A stretch of DNA of 64,000 nt, taken from Verrucomicrobiota bacterium (GTDB lineage: Bacteria > Verrucomicrobiota > Verrucomicrobiia > Verrucomicrobiales > Verrucomicrobiaceae). Below, one piece after another: positions 11,193-56,684 of the stretch (positions are counted from its first letter, which is position 1; each line of letters opens with the position of its first letter). Where the stretch lies: the NCBI GenBank assembly GCA_017301975.1, contig JAFLEI010000029.1, positions 1-64,000 of the forward strand, in the 5' to 3' direction. The position numbers and the translations under genes were made by a program. The notes below the pieces were generated by a model. It made no database searches. It saw nothing but the letters and a program-made list of their open reading frames with translations, and had not been told where the DNA came from.

Positions 11193-11443
11193 GGAAGTGG
11201 ATAGATGATGCTTGCTAATGGAAATCGCCCTCGCCGCACCACTTGGAAAGGCAGGCAGCCAATGGGATTCGCATCCGCAGCCCTTTGCGGATGTATCAAA
11301 CTCAATACGGTTCGATTTTTTTAGTCAACGACGAAATCGCACATGGCCCACTATTTGCGCGGAAAAAAAATATTCCGAGACTTCAATCAGGACACATCCT
11401 TATGGTCGTCGAGGTGCGATGTAACATAGATCGTTTCTGTACC
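11193..11443. other. Divergent promoter region between the DUF5985 operon and the HAMP-array kinase
   Basis: 251 bp that must hold the promoters of two divergent units. The kinase frame is open through much of it, with alternative starts at 11243 and 11402 (the latter preceded by AGGA), so part may be coding. I see no convincing operator. Confidence 0.3.
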
Positions 11444-26773: not shown

Positions 26774-26830
26774 AGGAACCACTACAAAACAGGGAAGAGC
26801 CCTCAACCCGAGCCAGCCCTGCCGAGACCC

Positions 26831-38116: not shown

Positions 38117-38147
38117 CTTCCTCCCATTGCAGGACAAAACCGGACAA
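38117..38147 (-). promoter_or_regulatory. Bipartite promoter/operator motif, copy A
   Basis: AAACCGGACA on the + strand (38137-38146) at 50 bp upstream of the azurin-fusion start at 38086, with a weak second box CTTCCTC 13 bp closer to the gene (38117-38123). It matches the motif at 42705-42735 and 56653-56684. Confidence 0.45.
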
Positions 38148-38207
38148 TGAAAGAGGTGGGCTAAAGGGCTCCTGGTGCTGAGCCTGATGTAAAGATCGAC
38201 GGCCGCC

Positions 38208-41200
38208 TCACTTCACATGCAGCACCCCGCGCATGATGAGGTAATGACCAGGGAAAGAGCAGATGTAAGGATAATCACCGGGCTTCGAGGGAGCGGTAAA
38301 CTCGATGACTTCTTCTTTCCCATGATCCAGCAGCTTGCTGTGCCAGAGGATGTTGGTGTTGTCCGGGATGAAGCCCGTTTCGAAACCTTTTGCTCCGAGC
38401 GCCATGGCCTGCATCGCGATTTCATCAACCTTGCCCGGATTCACAAGCAGGATGTTGTGCGGCATGAAGTCGGGATTGGCAAAGGTGAGCTTCACCTTCT
38501 TGCCGGCCTTCACGTTGAGTTCCTTCACATCATACATCATCCGTTCCGGCATGGTGGCGACGCGGATGGTCGTGAGTTCGGGCGTGTCACTGAGGATGCC
38601 CGACTTTTGTGCCTTTTCCTCGACCTCACCAGCGATGACACCTCCATGCATGGAGGCCTCCACATTGAACCAGAGATGCTGCACCACGTTCGCCGCATTG
38701 CGGGCATGCAGCTCGGGCGACTTCTGCAACTGGCCGAGCAGCTCAATGTTGCGCACATTGTGCTGTTGATGAATCCACAGCGCTTCCAGCAGGTGATGCG
38801 CGTCTTCCTTCTTGTTCGGATCAAACTGCTTCATCCATGCCTGCGTCGCCGCGATGACTTCCTTGGTGTCGCGTTCGCTGAGCTCGACATGCGTGCGATG
38901 GCGCACGCTGTCCGTGGGATGCTTGAGGTTTTCCAGCAGCGCAGGAATCGGCTGACCGTCGATTGGCACGATCTTTTGCAGCGGGCGGCCCGTGGCGGTG
39001 ATGCGGTAGATGCGCCCATGCTTATGGTCGCGGTTCGGATCGCGCACATTGTGCTGCATGTGGCCGATTATGACGTTGTGCCAGTCGCTGAGATACAGCG
39101 AACCGTCGGGGGCGAAGACGGCGTCGCTCGGCCGGAAATTCTTGTCGCCGCTCATCAGGAAACCGCGTGACTTTTCCTCAGTGACGCTGCCATCTGCCTG
39201 CGTGACCTTGACAGCGAGCTCATCGCCCGCTGGCTCACCCCACACGGTGCCTTTGTCGGCATCGCGTTCCAGGTGGTAATGCTTCACGCCAAGGAAACCG
39301 ATGACATTGCAGATGAGAAAGTCCCCCTGCATCTCCTCGGGGAAGTGCGTGCTGCTGACCACTTCGCTGGCCGTCACCGGACGCACTTCCTTCTTGAGCA
39401 GTTCATACATCTTGAAGCCGTTGCCCTCGGGCCGCACCTGATACGCACGGCCTCCAGTGCCGTCCGTCGCATACTGATAGCCCCAGGAATCAAACGAGGT
39501 GCCATGCGGATTGGGCGAATTCGTCGCATGCATGGCAATGGTGAACCGCCGCGGATCGAAGCGATACATGGCCGAGGCAGTGGCATTCAGCGATGGCCCC
39601 CACGGATGCTCGTAATTGTGCTGCATGAACACGCCGCTCTGCCAGTACAGTCCGCCATCAGGGCCATAGATGAGATTGTTCGCGCCGTGGTGCGTGTCGG
39701 AGCTGTCCAGCCCCGTGAGCATGATCGTCTCCACGTCCGCCTTGTCGTCGCCATCGGTGTCCTTGAGAAACAAGATCTCTGACTGCCGCGTCACAAGCAC
39801 GCCGCCGTTCCAGAATTCAAAGCCCAGCGGATTCTGCACCCGGGCAAACTCTGTCACGCGGTCGGCACGGCCATCGTTGTCGTCATCATGCAGGATGAGC
39901 AGCGCATCCTTCATCTCCTTCAGCGGCTCCCACTTCGGATAAGTCTCCCACGCGGCGACCCACAGGCGCCCCTTCGTGTCGAACTGCATCTGCACCGGGT
40001 TGGCCAGTTGCGGAAAGCGCGCTTCATCGGCAAACAAATGCACCTCAAAACCCTTTTTCACCGCCATGTGCTTGATCGCCTCTTCGCCGCTGATGTAGGT
40101 GAGCAGCCCTTCCTTCTGCGCGCTGCTGCTCTTGCTTCCGCCGCCGACGTTGGAAATCACCGGCACGGGTTTCGGCACGTTGCTGTCGTCGATCTTCTTG
40201 TCTCCGCCCGTGATGCGAGCCCAGATTCGCTCATCACGGTTCGCCGTCATCACATCCAGCATGGAAAGCTCATGCTGCAGCACAACGCCATTGGTCTGGC
40301 CGTTGGTAAAGCTCAGCGTGGAGCGGCTGCCCCACACGTCGTTGCCGTCGGAGGCATGGTAGCGGTTGTACCATTGCAGGCTCTTGTCCAGCACCGCCTC
40401 GCGTAGCGGCTCCATGGACGCCGATGCGCTCACCGGCTTGCCGAGCAATGCTTGTGCGATGACTTCCGCGAGCTGACGATCTCCTTCAATGGAAAGATGC
40501 ACACCGTTGATCGTCAGCGGCTCCTTCGCCGCCTTGAACAGTTCCAGCGTAGGATGGCACAGGTCCACGAACGCCACGCCAGCTTCCTTCGCCGCAGCTT
40601 CGGTGGCCTTTGTGTAGGCCTCCAGCTGCGCATTGTGCGCTTTGCCATCCGCCACGTTCACATTGTGCGTGTCTTCATGCGCGATGGGGCTGAAAAGCAC
40701 GATGCGCGGGAAGGACTTGCCGTTCGCCTTGCTGCCACGCGTTTTCTTCACAAACTCGACAAGCTGCTTCTGAAACTCCTCCGGCTTGTTGTCATACGAT
40801 TCGTTGTAGCCAAAGAAGCCGAACACCACATCCGCTTTCACATGGCGCAGGTAGTCCGTCATGTGCGTGGCGCCAGGGCTGCGCGGATAGCTGTTGGGGC
40901 GGTCACCACTGGTGCTCATGTTGCGAAAGTGCACCTGCATGTCCGGGAGCTGGCTCTGCAGCAGCGTCTCCATCCAACCGTCATGCTGCATGCGGTCCGG
41001 CAGTCCATTGCCCAGAATGGCAACCACCTCGCCCTTGCCAAACGTGAACGGCGTCGGGTCTTTGTAATCCGCAGGCACATCCGCCAGCTCAGGCTCCTTC
41101 ACCGGTGCAGCACCACCGCCTGATTTCTTCGCCGCAGGGTTGCCGGGCTTGCCATCAAAGGTCAGGTAGGAGAGCTTGCCGCCGCCTTTCACGTCAATGG

Positions 41201-42671
41201 TCATCGTTTCAGGTCCGGCCACGTTTTTGATCTCAAACACCGGTTTGCGAGCTTCATCGAGCAACTGGAGCGTGAAGTCGCCCAAACGGTCCGAAAAGCC
41301 CTGCCGGCTCCACAGTCCGATCGTGTCGATGGCCTGGCTGGAGCCCAGATCGACCTCCCACCAGGGATTCGGCTGGTTCTCTTTGGTATGCGTCTGGCCG
41401 CCCTTGCCCCAGTCCGGGCTCTTGTTGCCGTCAAAGGCCCGCTCGGGCACGCCGCCGTTGGTCGTTGTCGATTGCGAAGCCTTGCCGCCCTTCGCCACAT
41501 TCTTGCCGCCGCTCATCACCTCGATCTCCGCGATCTGCAGGCAGCGTTTGTCACCGGGAATCTCGATCCTCACATAGCGTGCCGGCTTGCCCGTATTCAC
41601 AGACACCTTGGCTGCCGCATCGCTCGTCTTGGCCGGCTTTGCTTCAGCCTTCTTCCGGCTCTTCGTGTCATGATTCGCCGGGATTACCGAGGCAAACCCC
41701 GCATACATCTCCGGTTTCACCCCATGCGCATAAGCACCGCCGCCAAACGTGTTTGGCTCAAAGGGACCGACGAACGACACATCCATGTCAGGCTTGATCG
41801 CGTCTTCCATGCCCAGCGCCCAGAAAATGCCGTTCACGATCATGCGGCGGTAGCCCTCATTCGTGATGTCTTCAGAGGTGCCGTACAGCGTGGTGAAAAC
41901 GCGCCCCGTTTTGCCATTCGCGCCTTTGTAGGTGCGCGTCCACTCACTGGGCATCGGCGGTTTCGTTTCATCCGCTGGCGAATCCTTCGTCATGCCATTG
42001 AGCGGCTGGGCCATCGTCAAAATCTCGCCATCCGTCGGCTTGCCCACATAGCCGCCTGCCTGCACCCAGACATCTTTCACCCCGCGCAGGATCGGATGTG
42101 CCGCCTTGTCCGGCACGATGGCAATGCGCGTGCTCTGCTTGTGATTCGTGCCGTAGTGCCCCACCCACGTCTGCCCGAGCACCTGATGGCCAAAGCCCAG
42201 CTCATAGCCCGCCACCTTGCTGTCGAACGAATACTTCGCGAAGGGATCGTCCTTAGTCGTCTTGAAACCATGCGTCGCCGTGCGCAGTCCGACCACCGGG
42301 CCGCCACGGGCCAGGTAATCATCAAAGTGCTTCATCTGCTCTTTCGGGAACTGCTGAAAGCGCAGGAAGACCACCGCGAGATCCGCCGTGTCCAGAGCCT
42401 CCATCCCCGGCATGTTCGCCACTTCACCCGCCACAATGTCGCCATCCTTGTCGATGTCGAACAGCACCGTGCACTTGAAGCCCTGATGCTTCGCAAGCAG
42501 CCGCGCGATGGCTGGAAGTGATTCCTCGGAGCGATACTCGTGATCCCCCGCCAGGAAGACAATATGCTTGCCCTTGCCAGGCCCTTCCGTGCCTTCAAAG
42601 ACGAGGGGGGCAGCGCTCGCAAAGGTCATAAGCGAGAACAGGACGAGGAGGATGGCGGCTGGGTTGGTCAT
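38208..42671 (-). CDS. Exported ThuA-discoidin-SGNH-propeller-HEAT-azurin giant protein
   Basis: A protein of about 1487 aa from Met 42671 with signal peptide [19 protein letters not shown] (a TTG at 42686 is a weaker start). Domains: ThuA-like class-I-amidotransferase fold (about 25-300; [18 protein letters not shown]), F5/8 type C discoidin (about 365-500; [22 protein letters not shown]), SGNH hydrolase (about 545-765; [30 protein letters not shown]), beta-propeller dehydrogenase-like domain (about 870-1190; [18 protein letters not shown]), HEAT-like helices (about 1195-1330) and a C-terminal azurin domain (His in MPHNILL, Cys/His in CSFPGHY, Met in LIMRG). It is a longer paralogue of the preceding gene. 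Sugar or polysaccharide oxidation is plausible but unproven. Confidence 0.9.
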
Positions 42672-42704
42672 AACAGGTCGGAACAAACGTGTGAAACGGG
42701 AGAG

Positions 42705-42735
42705 GTATCTCGCAGGGGGATACGAAACCGGACAA
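42705..42735 (-). promoter_or_regulatory. Bipartite promoter/operator motif, copy B
   Basis: AAACCGGACA (42725-42734) followed toward the gene, after exactly 13 bp, by GTATCTC (42705-42711). It lies 53 bp upstream of the start at 42671 and continues ATAAAA on the distal side, as copy C does. Confidence 0.55.
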
Positions 42736-42761
42736 TAAAATTTGGAAGTCGAACGTGGACT

Positions 42762-44264
42762 CTACCTGTGATAGTCCGCCCCCGTGAGGCTGTTCAGCAC
42801 AGACTGCTGCCAGTCGCGGAGTTCAGACTGCAGCTTTTTGGCGGTCTCGGGCTGCTGCTCGATGAGGTTGGTCTTTTCAGCGGGATCCGTGGCGAGATCG
42901 AAAAGCTCTTGCTTCACTCCTCCACCCTTCTTCTGCTCATGCACCACCAGTTTGTAATGTCCGTCGATAATCGCTCGCGGGCCGAGGTAGTCGTTCTCAG
43001 TGAGGATCGGATGGCGAAAATTGCTGAAGTCGCGCGTGGCTTTGCCGCCTGATTTTTTCACCAGCGGGCAGGTGCCTTCCTGCAGCTTGGGGTCGATGTA
43101 GGGCTCCGCCTTCTTGACATGCGCTGTGTCAAACTCCCAAAACCACAGCGGCTTGGGGCGCTCGGTCAATTTCCCATCCAGCACCGGCAGCAGGTCCATG
43201 CCGTCGATCGGACGATCCGGCAGCGCCTGCCCCGTGAGTGCGCACAGCGTGGGCAGCAGGTCGCTGGTCGTCGCGCGCACCTTCGTGCTTCGTGGCTGCG
43301 CGATGCGCGCGGGCCATTCGACAAGCCCCGGAACAAGTACGCCCCCTTCATAGACCTGCCCCTTCACACCGCGATGCGGCAGCACCAGCGAACCATCGGC
43401 GGAGGTGCCGTTGTCACCGCAGTAAAAAAGCAGCGTGTTATCGCGCAGCCCTTTGGCCGCGAGGTGCTTTCTCAGCGTGCCGATGGAACGGTCCATCGCG
43501 GTGATTTCAGCATAGCGCTCGCGCAGCACTTCACCCTGCGGCCGGGTTGTCTGCCCGCCGGTTTCGTTGGAGGTGAGCTTGACCTTCTTGTCCTTGTATT
43601 TCTCCGGCAGATCATCATACAGCGCCAGATCCTCCGGCAGCCCGCTGTAAGGCTCGTGCGGAGAGCCAAACCACACCATGGTGAAAAACGGCTGCTTCTC
43701 TTTGCTGGCCCGGTCGATGAACTTGATCGCCTCGTCGATGACGATGGCGGAGCTTTCTCCTTGGATGACCTCCGGCGGTCCGCCATTACGAGAAAGCGAA
43801 GGATTCAGCTCAAAGAAATTGTCATGCGACACCCACTCATGAAACCCCATCGCGCCCGGACTCGTCGGCGACTCCGCCTTAACCGGCCCCAAGTGCCATT
43901 TGCCGAAATGCCCGCAGTGATACCCCGCCCTGGCAAGAATCTGCGCGATGGTGATCTCCTCCGGACGGATCGAAAATCCAGGATTGAAAGTCCCCATCCG
44001 GTTCGGATGCCTCCCCGTCATGAAACTCGCGCGTGTGGGCGAGCAGCTCGGATGCGCGGCGTAGAAATTCTCGAAGCGGAAGCACGTCGCGGCCATCTCA
44101 TCAAGCACCGGCGTCTTCACATGCGGATGGCCGTTGTACCCCGTCTCCTCCCAGCCATGATCATCCCCCATGAGCAGGATGATGTTCGGACGCGATCGCT
44201 CTGCAAAAACCGCAGGTTGAATGCAGAGGGACGAAACCAGTATGAGCGCTAGAAGGCGGTTCAT
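42762..44264 (-). CDS. Exported sulfatase (type I, formylglycine)
   Basis: A 500-aa sulfatase with signal peptide MNRLLALILVSSLCIQPAVFA. The metal-binding Asp pair is in LLMGDDHGW (Asp34/Asp35). The formylglycine motif is C74-S-P-T-R78, followed by ASFMTGR, and needs oxidation by a sulfatase-modifying enzyme not in this window. Further elements are HFGKWHLG, YCGDNGTSADG and GGVLVPGLVEWP. It removes sulfate esters, probably from polysaccharides; the exact substrate is unknown. It lies 15 bp downstream of the DUF1080 gene in one operon. Confidence 0.94.
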   Translation of the reverse strand: MNRLLALILVSSLCIQPAVFAERSRPNIILLMGDDHGWEETGYNGHPHVKTPVLDEMAATCFRFENFYAAHPSCSPTRASFMTGRHPNRMGTFNPGFSIRPEEITIAQILARAGYHCGHFGKWHLGPVKAESPTSPGAMGFHEWVSHDNFFELNPSLSRNGGPPEVIQGESSAIVIDEAIKFIDRASKEKQPFFTMVWFGSPHEPYSGLPEDLALYDDLPEKYKDKKVKLTSNETGGQTTRPQGEVLRERYAEITAMDRSIGTLRKHLAAKGLRDNTLLFYCGDNGTSADGSLVLPHRGVKGQVYEGGVLVPGLVEWPARIAQPRSTKVRATTSDLLPTLCALTGQALPDRPIDGMDLLPVLDGKLTERPKPLWFWEFDTAHVKKAEPYIDPKLQEGTCPLVKKSGGKATRDFSNFRHPILTENDYLGPRAIIDGHYKLVVHEQKKGGGVKQELFDLATDPAEKTNLIEQQPETAKKLQSELRDWQQSVLNSLTGADYHR

Positions 44265-44279
44265 GAATACAGCAGCAGT

Positions 44280-45068
44280 TTATTTTTTCGTCGTCGGGAC
44301 CACAGGCCCCGTGCCTTGCGGGCTTTTCGTGCGCGGCTTCTCGATCTTCACGGCCCCGGCAGGAAGTTTGGCCGCATCAAAGGCCAGCGGTTCTGTCACA
44401 GGGAGCACTTTGAGGCGCAGGTCTTTGATATGCACGCTGTTCGCATTGCCGCGATGCAGTTGAATCGCCAGCAGCCCCGTCAGCGCACGTTTCTTTTCAT
44501 CATAGTCCGTCAGCTCGGAGGTGATCTTGCCGTTGATCTTGTGCACCAGATGGTTGCCGCGCGCGATCACGGTGTACTCATTCCACTGCGAGATGTCCAC
44601 CTTCACCGGCTCATGCGTGGAAAGCTTCCACAGAGCGCCCTCGGGGTCCAGCATCACATCCGTGCCATTGAGGCCAAAGATTCCACGCCCTCGTTCCTCA
44701 TACGTCATGCCCGTGTGCTCAGTGGCTGGATGGATGTCGATCTGATACCCAGTGATGACCCACGGTGCCACCTCTGGCATCTCGCGGCTGCGGTATTGAA
44801 CGCCCGAGTTGTTGTCACCCTCGACCCTTACCGTGGCATGCAGTTCAAAATCCTTCACCTCGCCGCCCCGCCAGATGAGGAAGGAGTTGTTGGCCATCGC
44901 ATCCGGCCCCGTGCAGGTGCCGATGACCTCGCCATTTTCCACCTTCCAGAGTTTCGGATCGCCATCCCAGTCGTTCAGGTCCTTGCCATTGAAGAGAGAG
45001 GTGAAGCCGTCTTCAGCAAAAGCTGCGGAGGCGAGCATGACAAAAGAAAGGAGCGCTGGGATTCTCAT
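44280..45068 (-). CDS. Exported DUF1080 (3-keto-disaccharide hydrolase type) protein
   Basis: A 262-aa protein with a signal peptide cleaved after SAAFA. Residues 22-215 form a concanavalin-like DUF1080 domain: GFTSLFNGKDLNDWDGD, KVENGEVIGTC, NNSGVQYRSRE, GYQIDIHP, IQLHRGNANSVHIKDLRL. Some family members hydrolyse 3-keto-glucosides after a GMC or Gfo/Idh oxidase. The C-terminal tail is rich in Lys and Pro. It is first in the operon with the sulfatase, suggesting action on a sulfated or oxidised sugar. Confidence 0.92.
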   Translation of the reverse strand: MRIPALLSFVMLASAAFAEDGFTSLFNGKDLNDWDGDPKLWKVENGEVIGTCTGPDAMANNSFLIWRGGEVKDFELHATVRVEGDNNSGVQYRSREMPEVAPWVITGYQIDIHPATEHTGMTYEERGRGIFGLNGTDVMLDPEGALWKLSTHEPVKVDISQWNEYTVIARGNHLVHKINGKITSELTDYDEKKRALTGLLAIQLHRGNANSVHIKDLRLKVLPVTEPLAFDAAKLPAGAVKIEKPRTKSPQGTGPVVPTTKK

Positions 45069-45158
45069 GATGATGGGTGGGCATGAACAACGCAGGATCT
45101 GCTGGGATTTCTCCTCATGCTTGCAACTTTCTCACCTCATCCCCTGTTGGTTTGCACC

Positions 45159-46478
45159 ATGCGTTCTCTTGCCCTCTGCTTTCTCGCCCTCACCGCATCC
45201 CTGTCTGCTCAGCAGGCACCCTACGATGTCTTTCCCTCCGCCGATGCGCCCTACTACCGCGTGCGCTACGAGGCCTCCACCCAGCCGGGAGAGCTGATCT
45301 ATCCGGTGAACTACACCGTGTGGGTGCCGCCGGGAGTGAAATCCCTGCGCGGGGTCATCGTCCACCAGCACGGCTGCGGCGAAGGCTCCTGCAAGTCCGG
45401 CCTCACCGGAGCCTTTGACCTGCATTGGCAGGCCTTGGCAAAGAAGCACGACTGCGCCCTCCTCGCACCCTCCTACGAGCAGCCGGAAAAAGCCGAGTGC
45501 CAGATGTGGTGCGATCCCCGCAACGGCTCCGACGCCGCCTTTCAAAAAGCCCTCGCAGATCTCGGCGCAAAGTCCGGGCACCCCGAACTCGCCAAAGTCC
45601 CTTGGGCGCTCTGGGGCCACAGCGGCGGCGGCCACTGGGCCGGCGGCATGACCCTCCTTCACCCGGACCGCGTCGCGGCCGCATGCCTGCGCTCCGGCGT
45701 GCCGTTGATGGAGGCCAATCCAGCACGGCCCACGATCAAGGCCTACACTCTGCCGGAGGCGGTAACGGGAGTACCGATCATGTGTAATCTCGGCACCAAG
45801 GAAGGCGTGACCGTCAAAGAGGGGCGCTTTGCCGGTGCGTGGCCTGCAAATGAGGCCTTCTTCACCGCCGTACGCGCCAAAGGCGGTCTCATCGGCATCT
45901 CCGTGGATCCATTCACCGCGCATGAATGCGGCAATCAGCGCTACTTCACCATTCCTTGGCTGGACGCCTGTCTCACCGCCCGACTGCCGGAAAAGAGCGG
46001 CGGTTCCCTGAAGCCGATGCCCACCAAGAACGCCTGGCTCGCTCCTCTCCTCGGCACGGAAGCAACTCCCGCCGCCAAGTTCACCGGAGAGAAAGAAAAA
46101 GCCCTGTGGCTCCCGAACGAAGCCATCGCCAAATCCTGGGCGACCTACGTCAAAGACACCGCCATTCCCGATACCACCCCGCCGCCTGCTCCCACCAACC
46201 TGCAGGTGAAAGGCTCTGAACTCACCTGGAAGGCAGAGGCCGACCTCGAAAGCGGTCTCGCCCATTTCATCATTGAGCGCGATGGCAAACAGATCGGCAC
46301 TGTGCCGGAGCAGCCCAAGAATCCCTTTGGCCGTCCAATTTTCCAGGGCCTGCAATACAGCGACACCCCCACCAACCCGCTCGTGGAGATGCGCTTTACC
46401 GATGCCACCCCCGAAGCCGGTAAAAAGCACCAATACCGCGTGATTTCCGTCAATACAGCCGGCCTGAAATCCGAGTAA
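45159..46478 (+). CDS. Exported alpha/beta hydrolase with C-terminal fibronectin-III-like domain
   Basis: A 439-aa protein from Met 45159, preceded by an untypical leader from 45117. Signal peptide [17 protein letters not shown]. The alpha/beta-hydrolase fold runs to about residue 330: oxyanion-side [10 protein letters not shown], nucleophile elbow [11 protein letters not shown], and candidate acid/base residues near [12 protein letters not shown]. Residues about 345-438 form a beta-sandwich of the FN3 type ([20 protein letters not shown]). It shares fold and context with the hydrolase at 51500. Substrate unknown; an esterase on plant-polymer side groups is possible. Confidence 0.85.
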
Positions 46479-46541
46479 CGGGCGTGTTTCCTGCTGCAAC
46501 ACGGGCTGCTCTGGCTACGTAGTAGTCAGCCCCCCAAATTC

Positions 46542-47813
46542 ATGAACAGACGCCGTTTCATCCTCCGCTCCCTGGGCACCTCGCTCGCCCTGCCGGGACT
46601 TCCTTCCCTCATGGCTGCCAATGTAGGCGGAAATTCCGCTGTGCAGACCGCCAAAGGAGCGGGCACCGGAGCGCGCCGCTTCGTCGCCGTCGGCAATCTC
46701 CTCGGCTATCAGACCAAGCAGCTTTTCCCCACCACCAAAGGCCGCGACTATGAGAAAACCACGCTGCTGGAGCCGCTGTGGGACATTCGCGACAAGATGA
46801 CAGTCCTTCGCGGCCTCGACCACGGCGTGAAAGGCGGCCACTTCGCTGTTCATTCTTTCCTCTCCGGCGTGCTGAACTCCGAGGCGCAAAACCGTCCGGA
46901 TGGCAATGTCACCATCGACCAATATCTCGCGGACGAAATCGGCTTTCAGACTCGGTTTCCCTCGCTGACCGTCGGCTCGGAAGGCGGCATCCACGGCGGC
47001 TGCCAGATCGCCTGGACCAAGTCGGGTGTACGCGTGCCACCCGTCACAAATCCTTCGCAGCTGTTTGAGAAGCTTTTTGTCACCGACTCCAAGGAGCGCC
47101 AGGCGCGCCGCGTGCAGGAAAACCAGGTGCAGGCCTCCATCCTCGACTCCGTCATGGACGAGGCCAGCCGCCTCTCCAAGCGCGTGAACAAGGAAGACAA
47201 GGACAAGCTGGACGAATACCTCACCTCCGTGCGCGATGTGGAAAAGCGACTCGAACTGCGCCAGCGCTGGGTGGCCCAACCAAAGCCCAAGGCCCCTTTT
47301 GACAAGCCCGCGAATCACAACGCCGTCGAAGACCTGCCGATCCTCTATGAATTGATCGCCCTCGCCCTGCAAACGGACAGCACCCGCATCGCCACGCTGG
47401 AAATCGGCGGCGACTTCATGCCTCAGCATCTCGGCATCAAGAAAGACTGGCACGGCCTTTCCCACCACGGCAATGACCCGGAAGCCATCGCCAGCCTCAT
47501 CACCCTGGAGAAGTACCAGATCGAACACTTCGGCAAATTCATCGCCCGTCTCTCCAAGATGAACGACGGCGACCGCTCCCTGCTGGACTCCACCACCGCG
47601 ATCTTTGGCAGCGGCATGGGCGATGGCAATTCACACAAAAACTCCGACCTGCCCATTCTCCTCGCAGGCGGCGGCTACAAGCATGGCGAATTCCGCGAAG
47701 TGCCGCGTGAAGGCATCAACAAGGTGCCTCTGTGCAATCTCTTCGTGGACATCGCGCAGAAGATGGGTGTGGAGACGGACTCCTTTGGTAGCAGCACAGG
47801 TCGTTTCGCGTGA
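46542..47813 (+). CDS. DUF1552 protein (Tat-exported)
   Basis: A 423-aa DUF1552 protein starting MNRRRFILRSLGTSLALPGLPSLMA, a twin-arginine signal. The body has RGLDHGVKGGHFAVHSFLSG, DQYLADEIG and HGLSHHGNDPEAI, typical of the family, which resembles sulfatase-like alkaline-phosphatase folds. The metal ligands are not fully recognisable by eye. The next gene starts inside its last codons (ATGA overlap), so it is coupled to the DUF1592/PSD protein, its usual partner in Planctomycetes and Verrucomicrobia. Function unknown. Confidence 0.92.
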   Translation: MNRRRFILRSLGTSLALPGLPSLMAANVGGNSAVQTAKGAGTGARRFVAVGNLLGYQTKQLFPTTKGRDYEKTTLLEPLWDIRDKMTVLRGLDHGVKGGHFAVHSFLSGVLNSEAQNRPDGNVTIDQYLADEIGFQTRFPSLTVGSEGGIHGGCQIAWTKSGVRVPPVTNPSQLFEKLFVTDSKERQARRVQENQVQASILDSVMDEASRLSKRVNKEDKDKLDEYLTSVRDVEKRLELRQRWVAQPKPKAPFDKPANHNAVEDLPILYELIALALQTDSTRIATLEIGGDFMPQHLGIKKDWHGLSHHGNDPEAIASLITLEKYQIEHFGKFIARLSKMNDGDRSLLDSTTAIFGSGMGDGNSHKNSDLPILLAGGGYKHGEFREVPREGINKVPLCNLFVDIAQKMGVETDSFGSSTGRFA

Positions 47814-50302
47814 TGAGTTCTGCTCCGAATCTGCGCTCCAGCGCATTGCTTTGCCTCGTGCTCCTCACTTCGGCCCGCGCCGCCGAAGACGCTCCCAAGC
47901 TCGCCCAGCAGTTCCTCGGCAAATACTGCTTGGAATGCCATGACGCGGATGTGCAAAAAGGCGACCGCGCCTTTGAAAAATTCGCGCTGCCCCTGAAATC
48001 CGTATCGGATCTCATCGACGCCCGCGACATCATCGATCAGCTCACGCTGAAGGAGATGCCGCCAAAAAAAGCGGACCAGCCCACCGATGACGAGCGCCTC
48101 GCCGTGATCCGTGCGCTTCGCGACGGCACGCAGTCCGCCTACGGCAAATTTCAGAGCACCGGCAGCCGCACCGTCATGCGCCGCCTCTCCAGCCGTGAGT
48201 ATGAAAACACCCTCGCAGCGCTGTTTGGCCGCCGCGTGGACACGCTGGGCCTCACCGCCGATTTCCCGAAGGAGAAGACGAGCCAGCACATGGACAACAT
48301 CGGCAAGTCCCTCGTCACGTCGGGCTTCCTGGTGGATCAATACTTTCAGTCCGCCAACCGCCTCGTCGAGACACGCCTTGGCAAACCTGCCACCGAGCCG
48401 AAGAGCTGGCGCTTCAACAGCCACTTCCTGCAATACGAAGAGCTGAGCGGCTCCCACAAAGCCGCCTTCAACTACCGCTACCTCTGCCTCTACGAGCAGC
48501 CCAACACCGACACCCGCCAGGGCGGCTATGGCCACATCGAAGATTTCAAGCAGGGCGTGCCCGTCTCCGGCCTTTACGACATCGAGGTGGAGGCCGCCGC
48601 GCTGCACCGGGACACCCACTACGATCCCGCCATCTTCGGCATCGACTTCTCCGAACCCTTCATTCTTGGAGTTGTGCCAGGAGATGTAACCAAAGGCCAC
48701 ATCCATTACCCCCAGGCCATCGAGCCCCTGCTCGCCAGCGCCGTGGTACCGGACAACACACCCACCTGGTTTAAATTCCGCGTCTGGCTGGAGGCCGGGC
48801 AGACTCCGCGCTTCATCTTCCCGAACGGCCCGTATGAATCCCGCGCCTCCGTGGTGACGATCAACAAACGCTACAAGGACGAGTTCAAGGCAGACGTCGG
48901 TTCCTCCGGCGTGGGTCGCGCCCACATCCTGCTGGAAGGCAAGCTGCCACACATCCGCATCAGCGAGATCAAGATCAACGGTCCCGTGCCTGAAGAAAAA
49001 GGCGGAGCCGAGGAAATCGCCGTGTTTGGCAAAGACGGCTTCCAACCCGATCATGCTCTGGATCAACTCCAGGCCTTCGCCGAGAAAGCTTATCGCCGTC
49101 CGCTTACTGACGTGGATCGCCAGCCCATCCGCGCGCTCTATGAAAAGCGCATCGCTGAAAAAGCCACACCCCGGCAGGCCGCCCTGGATGCACTGAAGCT
49201 CATCCTCTGCTCCCCCTCCTTCCTCTACCTCAGCGAGATCACCGACGAGTCCGCCAAGGCCCTGAGCCCCTACGACCTCTCCTCGCGCCTCTCCTACGCC
49301 CTCTGGGCCGCTCCGCCCGATGCCGCCCTGCTCGCCTCCGCCAAGTCCGGCAAGCTCACCGAGGATGCCGAGCTGAAAAAGCAAATCCAGCGCATGCTCA
49401 CCGATGAGCGCATCTCAGGCTTTGTGAGCGGCTTTCTCGACAGCTGGCTGAACCTCCGTGAACTCGGCGGCATGCCGCCGCCGCGCGAAGTCGTGCGCGC
49501 CTACTATGCCGAGGACCTCCCCACCTCGATGAAAACCGAGGCCGCTCTTTTCTTCCGCGATCTGCTGAAGACCAACGGCTCGGTCATTCAGTTCATCGAC
49601 TGCGACCACAGCTTCGTGGACAAGAAGCTCGCGAAACTCTACGACCTGCCCGAGCAGAAGACCCTGCGCCTGGCCGATGGTTTCAAAAAAGTCAGCCTCA
49701 AGGGAAACAATCATCGCGGCGGCCTGCTCGGCATGGCCGCCGTGCTGACCGTCAGCGCCAATGGCGTGGAAACCTCCCCCGTCACCCGTGGCGTATGGGT
49801 TACCGAAAACATTCTCGGGGTCCCTCCGCCACCGCCGCCGGATGTCGTTCCCGCCATTGATCCCGACGTCAGCGGAGCCACCACCATCCGCGACCGCCTC
49901 GCCAAACACCGCGCCGACGCAGCCTGCGCCGAGTGCCACCGCAAGATCGACCCCCTCGGTTTCAGCCTCGAAGCCTTCGACCCCGTCGGTCGCTGGCGTA
50001 CCAAGTACCCCCAGGTGAACAAAAAAACTCCCGCCGCCAAGATCGACACCACAGGCGAGTTCCCCTCAGGCGAGACCTACACCGACTTCGTCAGCTTCAA
50101 GAAACTCATCCACGACACCCGCTCCGACCTCTTCAGCCGCCACCTCATCCGCCAGGTCCTCACCTACACCACCGGCCGCACCATGGAGCTCAATGACGAC
50201 TTCATCATCGACAAGCTCCACGACAAAGTGAAAAAGCAGGGCCTCGGCCTCAACACCCTCCTCACCGAATGCCTCATGAGCGAAGTCTTCCGCTCGCGGT
50301 GA
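47810..50302 (+). CDS. DUF1592/PSD cytochrome c-like exported protein
   Basis: An 830-aa protein with a signal peptide and two CxxCH motifs: CLECH near residue 43 and CAECH near 705. The domain order follows the planctomycete-type family: N-terminal c-type cytochrome (PSCyt-like), DUF1587 (MRRLSSREYENTLAALFG), DUF1595, DUF1592 (GFLDSWLNLRELG), DUF1588 (GLLGMAAVLTVSANG and HRKIDPLGFSLEAFDPVG) and C-terminal DUF1585. Heme attachment is expected at both motifs. It is translationally coupled to the DUF1552 gene before it. The role in respiration or polymer oxidation is not established. Confidence 0.93.
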   Translation: MMSSAPNLRSSALLCLVLLTSARAAEDAPKLAQQFLGKYCLECHDADVQKGDRAFEKFALPLKSVSDLIDARDIIDQLTLKEMPPKKADQPTDDERLAVIRALRDGTQSAYGKFQSTGSRTVMRRLSSREYENTLAALFGRRVDTLGLTADFPKEKTSQHMDNIGKSLVTSGFLVDQYFQSANRLVETRLGKPATEPKSWRFNSHFLQYEELSGSHKAAFNYRYLCLYEQPNTDTRQGGYGHIEDFKQGVPVSGLYDIEVEAAALHRDTHYDPAIFGIDFSEPFILGVVPGDVTKGHIHYPQAIEPLLASAVVPDNTPTWFKFRVWLEAGQTPRFIFPNGPYESRASVVTINKRYKDEFKADVGSSGVGRAHILLEGKLPHIRISEIKINGPVPEEKGGAEEIAVFGKDGFQPDHALDQLQAFAEKAYRRPLTDVDRQPIRALYEKRIAEKATPRQAALDALKLILCSPSFLYLSEITDESAKALSPYDLSSRLSYALWAAPPDAALLASAKSGKLTEDAELKKQIQRMLTDERISGFVSGFLDSWLNLRELGGMPPPREVVRAYYAEDLPTSMKTEAALFFRDLLKTNGSVIQFIDCDHSFVDKKLAKLYDLPEQKTLRLADGFKKVSLKGNNHRGGLLGMAAVLTVSANGVETSPVTRGVWVTENILGVPPPPPPDVVPAIDPDVSGATTIRDRLAKHRADAACAECHRKIDPLGFSLEAFDPVGRWRTKYPQVNKKTPAAKIDTTGEFPSGETYTDFVSFKKLIHDTRSDLFSRHLIRQVLTYTTGRTMELNDDFIIDKLHDKVKKQGLGLNTLLTECLMSEVFRSR

Positions 50303-50364
50303 TCTGATAGCGGAAAGGCTGCCTTCGTTGCAAAGAGCATTCATAAGCGCGCGCCAGCGTCTTG

Positions 50365-50495
50365 GAGTGCGGTGGCAAAGATGCACGGCGCAAGCCTGCA
50401 TCGTCGACACCGCTTTCGCGGGGTGTTGAGCGCGCTTCCGCCTCAGCGCTCCGTCCGATCTGAAAAGTGGTGGTGCCATGCTTTCCACCGCACTC
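50365..50495. repeat. Inverted-repeat-flanked non-coding element
   Basis: Arms GAGTGCGGTGGCAAAG (50365-50380) and CTTTCCACCGCACTC (50481-50495) match at 15 of 16 positions with one base deleted. The inner 100 bp holds further short GCG-rich repeats. It lies between convergent genes, and open frames here look non-coding. It could be a member of an interspersed family such as a REP or MITE-like element. Confidence 0.4.
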
Positions 50496-50542
50496 GAAAA
50501 ACGCTTCGGGCTCTCGCGAGCGCCGAGTGCCTTGGAGCTCTC

Positions 50543-51433
50543 TCACTTCGCCGGAGTCCCAGCCGGCACCTCCGCCTTCACCTTCTTCGGCGGCGCAATC
50601 CTCGGCGTCAGCAACGAATCAATCACCGCCTTGTCCGCCTCGCACTTCGCACCACCTGCCGGAATCTCCACTCCCGCAGACCACAGCACGCCATTGATCA
50701 CCAACTGCCGCATCCCCGCCTGCTCCCAGGCACCATGCGCATCCAGCCCGCTGAAGCTGAACGAGCGTCCGCCGCTCGGACGCTCATAAGCCCAGCCCAC
50801 CACATCCTTGTCCCCGCCTTCCGGTGAGCCCAACTTCTCCTTCCCGGACCACACCAAGGGCGTGATCCCCTTCATCTCCGCTGGAAATTGCAGGTGGTTC
50901 AGCCACCCGTCATTGATCTTCCACGGTGTGACACCTCGGGTGATCGCATGCTTCGGAAACGTGTCATGCACGCTGTCCCAATGCCCCCGGCTGGAGAGCC
51001 CGTTGTACACCGCACCAATCCAGTTCATCGACTGCTGCGCAAAGGCCGGCGTAAATTCCACCGCTTGATGAAGGTTCATCAGCCCCGTTTGACCGTCCGC
51101 CATCTTCTGCACCGCCGCCACATGCTCCGGAGTCGCCAGATACGCCTGCTTGCCACCGCCATCGGTGTAAAACACCACCGCCGCAGCGCCATCGAACACT
51201 TTTTCATCCGAAGGCCATTCTTCATTCACCAGCACCACGTCCACCCCCGGCGTCTGCTTCAGCAGTGCTTGCATCAAACGGCAGCCTCCGAGGTAGTCAT
51301 GATGCCCCACCTTGTCCACCTCCTTGACCTTCCCGGCCACGAGTACAATTTTGACGCCTTCCGCCGCCCACGAAGAAGCGGTGCACAGGGCTGAAACGGC
51401 TAGCGATAACAGAAAACGAGAGCGGGAAATCAT
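50543..51433 (-). CDS. Exported ThuA-domain protein
   Basis: A 296-aa protein with a signal peptide (about 1-23). The ThuA-like fold has IVLVAGKVKEVDKVGHHDY, VFYTDGGGKQAYL, GQTGLMNLHQAVEF and GLDAHGAWEQAGMRQLVINGVLWSAG. ThuA proteins relate to trehalose utilisation in Rhizobium and to trehalulose/trehalosamine metabolism, but the exported Verrucomicrobial members lack known substrates. The C terminus is a Lys/Pro-rich tail. It follows the alpha/beta hydrolase by 66 bp on the same strand. Confidence 0.9.
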   Translation of the reverse strand: MISRSRFLLSLAVSALCTASSWAAEGVKIVLVAGKVKEVDKVGHHDYLGGCRLMQALLKQTPGVDVVLVNEEWPSDEKVFDGAAAVVFYTDGGGKQAYLATPEHVAAVQKMADGQTGLMNLHQAVEFTPAFAQQSMNWIGAVYNGLSSRGHWDSVHDTFPKHAITRGVTPWKINDGWLNHLQFPAEMKGITPLVWSGKEKLGSPEGGDKDVVGWAYERPSGGRSFSFSGLDAHGAWEQAGMRQLVINGVLWSAGVEIPAGGAKCEADKAVIDSLLTPRIAPPKKVKAEVPAGTPAK

Positions 51434-51499
51434 GACTGGATGGATAAGTGTTGGAGGCAGTCTAAACGGACGCGTCAGACCATAAATGTCTCCGAATCT

Positions 51500-52603
51500 T
51501 CACTGCCGGGAGATCTTGCCATCCCGCTGAAACATCTGCCAGTCCGCCGCATAGCCCGCATTGATCAGCCAGGAAGCCCTGTCCTTGTCTCCCGTGAACG
51601 ACGCAAAAGGTGCCGTCGTCAGCATTTGATACCCGCCCGTGGCGGCATCCCAGTTTTTCCCGAGCGAGCCATTCTCAAGCACCAGCGCATTCAGCTTCAC
51701 TGGCCCTTTCAGCGGCTCGGCATTCGCCGGCACACGCGCGGCAAACGTGTGCCGCAGAAACGAAAACACCAGCGGCCACGTCTTGTCCCCCGGCCCGTGC
51801 CCCGTCTTCGGCTCCACCGCATAATTCCACACGGCGCGATGCTTCTTCCGCATCGCCTCCACCACACCCATGTTTTCCTCTTTGGAAGGCCGCGCAAAGA
51901 AGGCGTCGTCCTCGCCGAAAATCACCAGCCCCGGAATCTGCGCCGCACCGGGCTGATAAACCTGATACGTCGTCCCCGGCCGCATCGAAACCCAGCCCCA
52001 CACGCGCGCACTGTCACCAGGAAAAATGGCGGAGAATCCCGTGCCATTGGAATGCCCGTAAAGAAACAGCGGCGCATTCTCCAGCTCCGCATGCTGCGCT
52101 CTTTGCCCAAAAGTTTTCAGCCGCTCATACAGCAGGCTCCGCGGCCAGAACCCACGCTGCATGGGATTTCCATTAAATTTGAATATCGCCAGGTGCAGCT
52201 CTCGCGCGATCTTCCTCAGCTCAGCATGCTTGTACAGCGCTTCACCGCTTCCATGGCCGGACATGACCACAATGCCCTTGACCACCGCCACTCCATCCGG
52301 AATCCACAGGTCAAACTTCACGTCCTCCCTTTTGCCTTCCCCCTTCTCCTTCACTGCCTGCTGCCACTGCTCATCACTCAGCTTCCAGTCCCAGCTCCGT
52401 TCCACTGCCTGCTGCGGTGAGGGCGTGCCCCACCTGGCCTCGTCCAGCACGCCATCCCAGTTCTTCTGACCCTTCACCTGCGTATTCGCCCGCACCCAGC
52501 CAATGCTGTGGCACTCCGGCAGTGGCAGCGTTTCGGTGAGTTCAATGTCAGCCGCATGAAGATTCGCCGCCAGCAGCGCCGCAATGAGGAAAGAAGCTTT
52601 CAT
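51500..52603 (-). CDS. Exported alpha/beta hydrolase
   Basis: A 367-aa protein with signal peptide MKASFLIAALLAANLHA from Met 52603. The alpha/beta-hydrolase core has nucleophile elbow LYGHSNGTGFS, acid region VIFGEDDAFF and catalytic His in KTGHGPG. It lies 4 bp after the DUF1552 stop and is therefore part of the PSD-DUF1552-hydrolase operon. The hydrolase at 45159 has a comparable fold and also adjoins a DUF1552-PSD pair, so this linkage is probably functional. Esterase activity on a polymer is a reasonable inference. Confidence 0.85.
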   Translation of the reverse strand: MKASFLIAALLAANLHAADIELTETLPLPECHSIGWVRANTQVKGQKNWDGVLDEARWGTPSPQQAVERSWDWKLSDEQWQQAVKEKGEGKREDVKFDLWIPDGVAVVKGIVVMSGHGSGEALYKHAELRKIARELHLAIFKFNGNPMQRGFWPRSLLYERLKTFGQRAQHAELENAPLFLYGHSNGTGFSAIFPGDSARVWGWVSMRPGTTYQVYQPGAAQIPGLVIFGEDDAFFARPSKEENMGVVEAMRKKHRAVWNYAVEPKTGHGPGDKTWPLVFSFLRHTFAARVPANAEPLKGPVKLNALVLENGSLGKNWDAATGGYQMLTTAPFASFTGDKDRASWLINAGYAADWQMFQRDGKISRQ

Positions 52604-52607
52604 AAGA

Positions 52608-53906
52608 TCAGGCAACCAGCTCCTTCAGCACACCCGAGCTGTCTCCATGACGCTCCACATTCACACCAATGCCATGCAGCAAAGTCAGCCACGCATTGCA
52701 CAGCGGCGTGTCCTTCGGCGCCACGATGTTGTGCCCCAGCTTGATTCCTGCTCCGCCACCGGTCAGCAGCGTCGGGCAGTTGTCCAGGCTGTGCTCCGTG
52801 CGGATATTGCTGCCATAGGCCAGCGCCACATGGTCAAATAAGCGGCTGCCATCCGCCTCCTTCGTCGCCTTGAGTTTGTCGATCAGCCCCGCCAGCAGTT
52901 CGCTCTGCGTCAAATCACGCTGCTTGGAAGCCTCCAGCTTTTCTCCCAGTGTGGAGTGATAATGGCTCATGTCATGCGGCGCCACCTTGATGCCGATGCT
53001 TGTCAGCAGCGTGCTCACCGGCTGCCGATACGTCAGCACCCGCGTGCTGTCCGTCTGCATCGCGGCGATCATGATGTCATACATGATCTTGATCTCCTCT
53101 TTCCCCGCCAGACCAGCCGCAGGCTCAGGAATCGGCGCCTTCGGCTGCGGCACACCGATCCACTGCTCATCCTTGCTCAGACGCGTCTCGATGTCGCGGA
53201 TGCCTTGGAAATACTCCTCCAGCTTCCCCTTGTCCGTTTTGCCCAGTCCACGCTGCATCGTGCGTGCGTTTTCCATCACCGTGTCCAGCACGCTGCGCTT
53301 TTGCGCCAGCATCGCTTTCTGCTGCTCAATGGGCGTCGTGTCCTTGGAAAAAAGCCGATGGTACGCCTCCACCGGCCCCTTGTGCCCGCCGATGGGCTTG
53401 CCGCTCACATCCCACGCCATCGAAAGCCCCGGCCCATGCCCCGATGCCTCCGCATTCTCGCTGCCATTCAGTTGCAGCGAAGCAAAGCGCGTATCCAGCC
53501 CCAGCTTCGCCGCCGCCACCTGATCCGCCGAGATGCTGTTGTGAAAGTTCTGCCCCGGCTCGCCAAATCGATTCGCCCCCGTCAGCCACATCGTGCTGCC
53601 CCAGTGCCCGTCATTGCTGTACTTGTTCCACAGCCCCTGCACCACGCTGAAGTCCGCCTTGTGCCGCGCCAGCGGTCTCAGCCCCTCGGGCAGCGCATAA
53701 TCCGCCCCCGGTTGCTTGATGTCGGGAAACCAGCTCTCTGTCGTGATGCCCCAGCCAAAACCCAGAAACATCAGCCTCTTCGGCGGCGTCATCGGTGCCG
53801 CTGCCGAAGCAAACCGCCGAAAGCCCAGCGACTCAAGCGCCGGGAGTGCAATGAGCGCGGTGCTGGATTGGAGAAAGTGGCGTCGCCGAATGGGTGAGGT
53901 GCTCAT
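52608..53906 (-). CDS. DUF1552 protein (Tat-exported), second copy
   Basis: A 432-aa DUF1552 protein whose N terminus PIRRRHFLQSSTALIALPAL is a twin-arginine signal. Conserved segments include VVQGLWNKYSNDGHWGS, ISADQVAAAKLGL, IKVAPHDMSHYHS and GSNIRTEHSLDNCPTLL. It differs considerably from the copy at 46542. It sits between the PSD protein upstream and the hydrolase downstream (21-bp and 4-bp gaps). Gene order, PSD before DUF1552, is opposite to the other pair. Confidence 0.93.
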   Translation of the reverse strand: MSTSPIRRRHFLQSSTALIALPALESLGFRRFASAAAPMTPPKRLMFLGFGWGITTESWFPDIKQPGADYALPEGLRPLARHKADFSVVQGLWNKYSNDGHWGSTMWLTGANRFGEPGQNFHNSISADQVAAAKLGLDTRFASLQLNGSENAEASGHGPGLSMAWDVSGKPIGGHKGPVEAYHRLFSKDTTPIEQQKAMLAQKRSVLDTVMENARTMQRGLGKTDKGKLEEYFQGIRDIETRLSKDEQWIGVPQPKAPIPEPAAGLAGKEEIKIMYDIMIAAMQTDSTRVLTYRQPVSTLLTSIGIKVAPHDMSHYHSTLGEKLEASKQRDLTQSELLAGLIDKLKATKEADGSRLFDHVALAYGSNIRTEHSLDNCPTLLTGGGAGIKLGHNIVAPKDTPLCNAWLTLLHGIGVNVERHGDSSGVLKELVA

Positions 53907-53927
53907 GATGCTTTTTTCGTTAAGAGA

Positions 53928-56639
53928 TTACTTCGTGTGAAATTCCTGGCTCGCGACCAGTGCGTGAATGAACTCGCGAATCGCTATATCCTTCTTCCAC
54001 GCGCGCGCCACCATGGTGTCGATCAGCGGTTCATCGCGGAAACCCGGCGGCCGCCCTAGTGCAAACTCAAGCAGCGCCTCGCTGAAGCCACGCGCAAACG
54101 CATCCGACTTCGAGGCAATGATGTCGCGCAGCCCAAAGAAATCCTTGAAAACAGGCCCCTTGTACAGCGCCGCCGCCGCCTCAATCGTCCATGTCTTTTT
54201 CGTTTTGGGATCTGCCTTGCCGTTCGCATCCACCGCCATGTAACTGTCCTCGGTGCGCCATTGGCCTGCAGCGTCAAAGTTCTCCAGACCAAACCCCACC
54301 GGATCAATCTTGCGATGACAGCTTGCACACTGCGGATCTTCCTGATGCGCCAGCAGCCGCTCATGCGTCGTCAGCACCTTGCCCGCCAGCCTTGTGATCG
54401 CAGGAACATTCGCGGGCGCAGGCGGCGGCGGATCATGCAGCAGCTTGCGCAGCACCCACGCCCCGCGCTCCACCGGACTCGTGCGCTCACCGTTGCCCCC
54501 CATGAAATGAACCGCCGCCATCCCGAGCAGTCCTCCACGCGGCGAATCTTTCGGCAGCATCACCTTCTCATACCCTTCCCCCTGCACACCCGGAATGCCG
54601 TAGTAGTGAGCCAGCACGCGATTGATCATCACATAGTCGGCCTTCAGCAGGTCTCGCAGGCTGGCGTTCTCCCGCATCACATGTGCGATCGTTTCATGAA
54701 TCTCACCCTTCGCCGCCACCTTCGTGCCCGTGTCAAAGCGCGGATACAGCGTGCGATTCACCTCGAAAAAATCAATGCGATCCAGCCCCAGCCATTGATG
54801 CGTGAAAGCTTCAAGGAATCCCGCCGAACGCGAGTCATTCAGCAGCCGCTCCGTCTGCGCAGCCAGCACCTCCGGCTTCATCAAATCACCCTTCCTGCCC
54901 AGCTCCCGCAGCGCAGCATCCGGCGGCGCGCTCCAGAGAAAATACGCCAGCCGCGTGGCCAGTTCAGCACCTGTCAGCGGCCGGTGCTTCTCATCAGGTG
55001 TTGGCTCCGCAAGATATAAAAACATCGGCGACGACATCACCACCGCCAGCGTCTCCTTCAGCGCTGTACTGTGCTTGTCCCCCGCCTTCCGCCGCACCTC
55101 ATAGAGCCTTACCAGCCGGTCGATATAATCTGCTGTTGGCTTCGTCCCGCGAAACGCCTCCGTCGCAAATCGCTCCAGTCCCGCACGCACTTCCGCCACA
55201 GCCGGCGCAGGTGCCTTGTCGTCGAGCGGAATGCCCAGCGCCGCGATCCCCGGCGGCTTCGGCTTGCTGGCATCCGGCAGACGCTCCACCTCGATCCAGT
55301 CCACCCACAGCGTCAGCTCGGGCCCGATGCCATTGCGCTTCAATGCCTCCGCACGCTTGCGCCCGCCCTCTTCATTCGTGTCCCAGCTTCCTTTTTCCCG
55401 CACAAACAGCAGTCGGTTTTCACGCGTCATGTTGCTACGCGTCAGCGTCAGAGGAATCTCGATCACCTGCGGCTTCTCAATACTGGCCGTGATCTCATGC
55501 GTCGCCATCACCCGCCCCGTGCGCGCATAGATGCCAAAGTCGAGAAAGCGCCTTTCCGCCGGCGCATCCTGGGTCGCACCAGCGCACACGCGCACCACGT
55601 AGTTCCCCACCGGCCAGTCAAACGGCACCAGCAGCTCGATGTAGTTCACGTTCAGTTCCGCCGGATGTCGCGTCTGCGTGCCCAGGTACGCCCCTTTGTC
55701 CACTGCGGGCTGCGCCATGTAATACTGGTGATATTTCAGCCAGCCCGCCCCCAGCGAATCATTCGCCAAGTCAGCGTCGTTCTCGCCCTTCTTGTCAAAG
55801 CCAAAGCTCCGCGGATTGGGGGCACCCGGAATCCGCGCCCACTCACGCCGGAAGATGCTCTCGTTCTTCGACTCCTTGCGGATCTTCGCCACGATCTCCT
55901 TGTTCTCCGGCTTCGCCGCCGCTTCCTCCACCGCTTTCACCCAGTTCTGCGCCCGCTTCTGCGCATCGATCTGATAGTCCACAAACTTCCGCACCACCGG
56001 CGTCGTCGTCTCACCCTCATAGTGCAGCTTCTTCTCCACACCCGCCGCCGCCTGCCACGCAAAGGCCTCCTCCATCGCCTCACGTCCGATAACCTGATAC
56101 TGCTCAAACTGGTTCGCCGACATGAAGAGGTTCGCCCCCACCGTGTCAAATCCCCCGCCTCCATCCGCAGGCAGATCAGAGACATTCACATCCACCCCCA
56201 GCAGCTCACGCAGCGTGTTCTTGTACTCACGCCGGTTCAGCCGCCGCATCGTAATGACACCCTTCTGGTCCCCCAGCGTGCGTCGCGCCGCCACCATCAC
56301 ATTCGCCAGATCATCCAGAAAATCCGCCTTTGCATCCTTCGCCGGCTGCTTCTCATCCTCCGGCGGCATCTCGCCCGAGTTCATCTGATTCAGCACCTTC
56401 TGCCACTTTTCCGCCGTTTCGATGTCCTTGATCTCAAACGGAAGATCGTCCACGCGAAACTTCCCTTTCTGCTTTTCCGGTCCATGGCATGAAACACAGG
56501 TTTCTTGCAACAGCGCCCGGTGCCTCCCATCCATCACTGCCGTCCCCTTCGCCTCCTCAGCATGAGAAAACGTGTGGCTAAAAAATAAGACGGCGATAAG
56601 TAAAAACGGACGGTACATTCGGGGAAGAAACAAACGCAT
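53928..56639 (-). CDS. DUF1592/PSD cytochrome c-like exported protein, second copy
   Basis: A protein of about 903 aa from Met 56639; Met 56618 (MYRPFLLIAVLFF) is also plausible and would put the shared promoter motif at the same distance as in the other copies. A signal peptide precedes a CVSCH heme motif. It then follows DUF1587 (TMRRLNRREYKNTLRELLGV), a carbohydrate-binding-like insert, DUF1595, DUF1592 (HQWLGLDRIDFFEV), DUF1588 (GLLGMAAVHFMGGNG and CASCH-RKIDPVGFGLENFD) and DUF1585. It is first in an operon with DUF1552, hydrolase and probably ThuA genes. Confidence 0.93.
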   Translation of the reverse strand: MRLFLPRMYRPFLLIAVLFFSHTFSHAEEAKGTAVMDGRHRALLQETCVSCHGPEKQKGKFRVDDLPFEIKDIETAEKWQKVLNQMNSGEMPPEDEKQPAKDAKADFLDDLANVMVAARRTLGDQKGVITMRRLNRREYKNTLRELLGVDVNVSDLPADGGGGFDTVGANLFMSANQFEQYQVIGREAMEEAFAWQAAAGVEKKLHYEGETTTPVVRKFVDYQIDAQKRAQNWVKAVEEAAAKPENKEIVAKIRKESKNESIFRREWARIPGAPNPRSFGFDKKGENDADLANDSLGAGWLKYHQYYMAQPAVDKGAYLGTQTRHPAELNVNYIELLVPFDWPVGNYVVRVCAGATQDAPAERRFLDFGIYARTGRVMATHEITASIEKPQVIEIPLTLTRSNMTRENRLLFVREKGSWDTNEEGGRKRAEALKRNGIGPELTLWVDWIEVERLPDASKPKPPGIAALGIPLDDKAPAPAVAEVRAGLERFATEAFRGTKPTADYIDRLVRLYEVRRKAGDKHSTALKETLAVVMSSPMFLYLAEPTPDEKHRPLTGAELATRLAYFLWSAPPDAALRELGRKGDLMKPEVLAAQTERLLNDSRSAGFLEAFTHQWLGLDRIDFFEVNRTLYPRFDTGTKVAAKGEIHETIAHVMRENASLRDLLKADYVMINRVLAHYYGIPGVQGEGYEKVMLPKDSPRGGLLGMAAVHFMGGNGERTSPVERGAWVLRKLLHDPPPPAPANVPAITRLAGKVLTTHERLLAHQEDPQCASCHRKIDPVGFGLENFDAAGQWRTEDSYMAVDANGKADPKTKKTWTIEAAAALYKGPVFKDFFGLRDIIASKSDAFARGFSEALLEFALGRPPGFRDEPLIDTMVARAWKKDIAIREFIHALVASQEFHTK

Positions 56640-56652
56640 TGGGACGATCAAT

Positions 56653-56684
56653 GTATCTCGCCATCAGCGTCAAAACCGGACGAA
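56653..56684 (-). promoter_or_regulatory. Bipartite promoter/operator motif, copy C
   Basis: AAACCGGACG (56673-56682), 13-bp spacer, then GTATCTC (56653-56659), the same order and spacing as at 42705-42735. A distal AATAAAAT tract is also shared. It precedes the PSD operon. Confidence 0.55.

Follow-up and report, generated by a model that had tools for sequence, protein, structure and literature searches.

The question raised by this locus is what controls three leftward transcription units that share a bipartite sequence motif. They lie in a 64,000-nucleotide (nt) stretch of DNA from a Verrucomicrobiota bacterium of the Verrucomicrobiaceae (GenBank assembly GCA_017301975.1, contig JAFLEI010000029.1, positions 1 to 64,000, forward strand), referred to here as the window. 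The assembly totals 6.9 Mb in 95 contigs, of which the window is C22; by its named relatives, the genome belongs in or next to the genus Prosthecobacter. An earlier note on this DNA described the motif, with an exact 13-bp spacer, at 42705 and 56653 and, with a weaker second box, at 38117, and proposed that the exported fusion and PSD genes answer to a single regulator or sigma factor. The description is confirmed on the minus strand, and the proposal gains a probable regulator: the motif is very probably the bipartite promoter of a single autoregulated sigma factor of the extracytoplasmic function (ECF, group IV) type, encoded outside the window at C21:73329-73859, which would activate its own gene and a small regulon of exported proteins related to electron transfer and carbohydrates.

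In the orientation of the transcript (minus strand), the motif reads TGTCCGGTTT-N13-GAGATAC, its first box being taken as the -35 and its second as the -10 element. Promoter 1 (42705..42734) is an exact match, with TGTCCGGTTT at 42725-42734 and GAGATAC at 42705-42711. It stands 33 nt upstream of the ATG at 42671 of an exported 1487-amino-acid fusion (38208..42671, minus strand) in which Pfam and NCBIfam recognize ThuA, F5/8 type C, GDSL, DUF7133 (PVC-type heme-binding) and azurin domains. Promoter 2 (38117..38146, minus strand) has TGTCCGGTTT at 38137-38146 and a weak -10 box, GAGGAAG, and is found 30 nt upstream of the ATG at 38086 of a second exported fusion, matched by the same databases to GDSL, DUF7133, HEAT and azurin domains (34895..38086, minus strand, 1063 amino acids). 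Promoter 3 (56653..56682, minus strand) combines CGTCCGGTTT at 56673-56682, which differs from TGTCCGGTTT by a single change, C for the first T, with GAGATAC at 56653-56659. It is located 34 nt upstream of the ATG at 56618 of a PSCyt1/PSD protein of 896 amino acids (53928..56618, minus strand; DUF1592-DUF1588-DUF1587-DUF1585-DUF1595 in Pfam), a start already assumed in the earlier note and backed here by orthologue alignment. The gene for a DUF1552 (HXXSHH) protein (52608..53906, minus strand) begins 21 nt after the PSD gene and has no promoter motif of its own; the two probably form an operon. Directly after it, a gene for an exported protein without a Pfam match (51500..52603, minus strand) is probably the third member of this operon.

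The spacer is exactly 13 nt at all three sites. With up to three mismatches allowed in the 16 specified bases, these are the only sites in the window, against 0.21 expected, and none of 100 shuffles reached three. A position weight matrix built from 88 sites at other loci, leaving out the three of the window, likewise placed only these three above 6 bits (45.3, 32.5 and 32.5 bits); 10 simulated windows scored 9.2 bits at best. Across sites the consensus boxes are TGTCCGGTTT (-35) and GYGRKATA (-10). The first box, 10 bp long, is nearly invariant and is preceded by an A/T-rich region resembling an UP element; the second-box columns carry 1.0-2.0 bits at fixed spacing and played no part in selecting most sites.

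Throughout the 6.9-Mb genome, the full motif occurs with at most one mismatch at three places, each just before a gene start. The pattern TGTCCGGTTT-N13-GRKATR, with zero or one mismatch, occurs at five: the two strong window sites (42705 and 56653), C21:67702 before a 1396-residue ThuA-DUF7133-cytochrome c protein, C36:55078 before a ribulokinase gene, and C21:73871 before an ECF sigma gene. Rather than appearing with similar frequency at random positions or inside genes, the strong sites all face the right way, with a start codon some 10-40 nt downstream. Two-mismatch matches, among which the 38117 site falls, are at control level (14 versus at most 12), and the first box on its own shows no enrichment (48 occurrences versus 125 for the reversed control); the information resides in the pair of boxes. 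Extending the search beyond the window gave 93 matches in the genus against 18 for the reversed control, an enrichment that counters random placement, and 34 against 23 outside the genus. Matches within open reading frames of unrelated genes in other species (for example in L182, L188 and L218) were set aside as background.

The link to a regulator comes from the site on contig C21. The sigma factor encoded there (C21:73329-73859, 177 amino acids) consists of regions 2 and 4 only (Sigma70_r2 at 12-78, r4_2 at 111-161), and its ATG is located 11 nt after the GAGATA of a perfect motif copy (0 mismatches). Thirty sigma loci of the genome were checked, and only this one has the motif, the others showing at least three mismatches. 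Single-copy orthologues, 70-100% identical, occur in 40 of the 48 genus genomes and in a few neighbouring genomes, and the motif is kept at nearly the same distance in 42 of the 43 orthologues with enough upstream sequence (the 42 being 74-100% identical), although the surrounding DNA has diverged; three further genomes of the family likewise carry it before their orthologue. Matches with at most one mismatch were found in 30 of the 40 sigma-bearing genus genomes and in none of the 8 that lack the gene. Sharing its promoter motif with the targets, the sigma gene is probably autoregulated.

The target promoters are conserved as well, the motif being located 13-70 nt before the starts of orthologues of all five target genes, namely both azurin fusions, PSD, ThuA-DUF7133-cytochrome c and ribulokinase. 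The PSD and ribulokinase orthologue sets came from motif matches, whereas the ThuA-DUF7133-cytochrome c set and part of the GDSL-azurin set were reached through a neighbouring gene. The motif precedes the ThuA-DUF7133-cytochrome c gene in 14 of 14 loci (two of them fetched through a motif) and the GDSL-azurin gene in nearly all orthologous loci. Promoter 1 is kept before orthologues at least 76% identical, and promoter 3 in seven other species, whose PSD orthologues are 83-91% identical and whose loci were fetched through the motif. At the equivalent of the 38117 site, close relatives show GAGGTGA, GGGGTGA or GGGATGA at unchanged spacing and more distant species the full GGGATAC or GGGATAA, which indicates that 38117 is a true site whose second box has weakened in this lineage; in one relative, L209, it is the first box that has been lost. 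In another relative, G004, the regulon appears to have extra members, a sulfatase-like protein (by its N-terminal sequence) and a further exported protein.

The earlier note suggested a search for the motif upstream of DUF1592, DUF1552 and azurin-fusion genes; it is present before the exported fusions and the PSD operon of the window but does not mark the families in general. Of the 13 DUF1592 genes in the genome only 1 has the motif, and of about 36 genes for DUF7133 proteins only 3, which rules out a family-wide rule. A second DUF1592 gene in the window (47810-50302, plus strand; PSD4 match at 49262-49648) lies on the opposite strand and has no motif site. The motif thus marks one particular regulon and does not go with DUF1592, DUF7133 or azurin genes as such. 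Judged from sequence, the best explanation is a regulon of six transcription units: the sigma gene itself, the two DUF7133-azurin fusions, the ThuA-DUF7133-cytochrome c gene, the DUF1592-DUF1552 operon and ribulokinase. Downstream of the C21 ThuA gene, a gene for a 3-keto-disaccharide hydrolase-cytochrome c protein and one for a sulfatase possibly belong to the same unit. At L046 (4017-7421, minus strand), a 3-keto-disaccharide hydrolase-cytochrome c fusion adjoins a sulfatase gene downstream of a regulated ThuA-DUF7133-cytochrome c gene.

A candidate sensor accompanies the sigma factor. The next gene overlaps the sigma gene by 8 bp and encodes a 505-residue protein with FecR (142-223, Pfam) and Laminin_G_3 domains; it was directly downstream of the sigma gene in every locus checked (56-96% identical). 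One strong hydrophobic stretch at about 70-95 corresponds to a single transmembrane helix, modelled at 72-96. The structure model, middling overall (mean predicted local distance difference test score, pLDDT, 70), shows an N-terminal helical bundle, this helix, the FecR sheet and a LamG fold predicted with confidence. When the LamG domain was compared with known folds, only generic lectin-like matches emerged, the best small-domain match being domain 4 of the arabinanase AbnA (TM-score 0.74, target length), and such generic matches do not allow a ligand to be named. The protein is probably an anti-sigma factor and sensor, and its LamG domain plausibly senses carbohydrate. In the proposed mechanism, an extracytoplasmic ligand, plausibly a LamG-bound carbohydrate, would relieve inhibition of the sigma factor, and the freed sigma would direct RNA polymerase to TGTCCGGTTT and GYGRKATA. 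Activation of its own gene would amplify the sigma/FecR-LamG pair, and a small exported set would be made, comprising the two DUF7133-azurin fusions, the ThuA-DUF7133-cytochrome c protein and the products of the DUF1592-DUF1552 operon, together with ribulokinase; the 3-keto-disaccharide hydrolase and sulfatase genes, downstream of the ThuA-DUF7133-cytochrome c gene, might follow.

Several points weigh against this assignment to the C21 sigma factor. It rests on computation, and the compared genomes are all related and hence not independent. The Fisher p of about 1e-4 for the difference between sigma-bearing and sigma-lacking genomes counts the sigma's own promoter among the matches and is a guide only, as the genomes are related and several of them, including some without the sigma gene, are incomplete. 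Among the sites used to train the matrix were orthologues of the window's promoters, and anchoring the counts on GTCCGG inflates the columns concerned. At 38117 the second box is weak. The sigma orthologue that has diverged furthest (L239, G007:C2, 70% identical) has no upstream motif, and its promoter specificity may have changed. Finally, FecI-like systems are exceptions that are usually not autoregulated, and a FecR-paired autoregulated sigma factor is therefore unusual for the FecI-type model (PMC8103513).

Three other explanations were weighed. The one that survives best, though improbable, is that the boxes form the binding site of an activator or repressor, with a housekeeping sigma factor starting transcription nearby. 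A first box that is long and almost invariant is what an operator might show; yet the distance between the two boxes is constant and like that of -35 and -10 elements, most starts lie 10-40 nt from the second box, the boxes contain no palindrome or direct repeat, and the motif precedes one sigma gene out of 30. It is very improbable that the regulator is instead the ECF-like sigma factor of the window itself (57388..58023, minus strand), which adjoins the PSD promoter and has downstream of it the gene of a small membrane protein, a possible anti-sigma factor for it. Only 2 of 35 genus genomes contain this sigma gene at 60% identity or more, against a genus-wide motif, and on this narrow distribution it was rejected as the regulator; moreover, no motif precedes it, and relatives do not have it next to their PSD genes. 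Chance resemblance, or descent from duplicated upstream DNA, has a negligible probability: some targets are paralogous (the DUF7133 fusions) and the first box by itself is no commoner than background, but the sigma, ribulokinase and PSD genes are mutually unrelated, flanking DNA is dissimilar, and the sites hold their spacing and position from species to species. An autoregulated C21 sigma factor is thus retained as the preferred regulator.

One element in the window falls outside this regulon. The earlier note saw a fainter relative of the motif at 51463, before the ThuA gene (50543-51433), but this position overlaps the second box of a separate element, GACATTT-N15-CGTTTAG (51462..51490, minus strand). 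With a spacer of 14 or 15 nt, this element is kept before ThuA in six species including the present one, none of which has TGTCCGG there, and of 56 genomes 7 have the exact GACATTT/CGTTTAG pattern, each a single time, with none in the control. Other regulatory genes of the window include a third ECF-type sigma gene without the motif (26147-26806, minus strand, 219 amino acids), a very large hybrid histidine kinase of 1893 amino acids with a long HAMP array and three receiver domains (11243-16924, plus strand), and a CheB-CheR-PAS-histidine kinase-receiver fusion of 1355 amino acids (209-4276, minus strand). The membrane protein after the window's ECF-like sigma gene (57041-57391, minus strand) has 116 amino acids, one helix and no Pfam match.

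An ECF sigma factor with its regulon is a known kind of system; this one has a non-canonical promoter and an unusual target set. In NCBIfam the C21 sigma factor comes closest to TIGR02989 (Sig-70_gvs1, ECF sigma factors of Rhodopirellula and Verrucomicrobium), matched over the whole domain with an E-value of 5e-27, yet its 94.7 bits are below the curated cut-off of 124.55 bits and it is not assigned to that family. In FecI-FecR and the glycan-responsive ECF/FecR systems of Bacteroidota, an ECF sigma gene is followed by one for a single-pass FecR-domain membrane protein, and the targets are mostly exported and carbohydrate-related. The C21 system shares this gene order and target type, but its sigma gene bears its own promoter motif, its FecR protein carries a LamG domain, and it targets proteins of cytochrome, azurin and PSD type. 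The first description of ECF promoters gave AAC at -35 and CGT at -10 (PMC8103513); the present ones resemble them in having two short boxes, similar spacing and an autoregulated gene, and differ in the boxes themselves, TGTCCGGTTT and GYGRKATA. PSCyt/PSD genes of the same kind as the targets were reported in freshwater Verrucomicrobia, near sulfatases and LamG-type domains, by He et al. 2017 (PMC5615132), a paper in whose text a search for sigma factor or FecR turned up nothing. Literature searches, whose reach did not extend to the main ECF reclassification paper, returned no description of this promoter or regulon and no well-defined ECF promoter class in the phylum, to which the present one would be an addition. 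Tentatively, the system may represent an ECF group new to description in Verrucomicrobiaceae, combining the TGTCCGGTTT/GYGRKATA promoter, a LamG-type carbohydrate-sensing FecR anti-sigma factor and, under its control, a dedicated redox-coupled (azurin, cytochrome c, PSD) pathway for the use of one particular glycan. PSCyt/PSD genes, whose function is unknown, are plentiful in the Planctomycetes-Verrucomicrobia group (PMC5615132), and DUF1552 and DUF7133-azurin proteins are likewise abundant there with function unassigned; a named sigma factor, a probable sensor and an exact promoter offer a handle on when these proteins are made.
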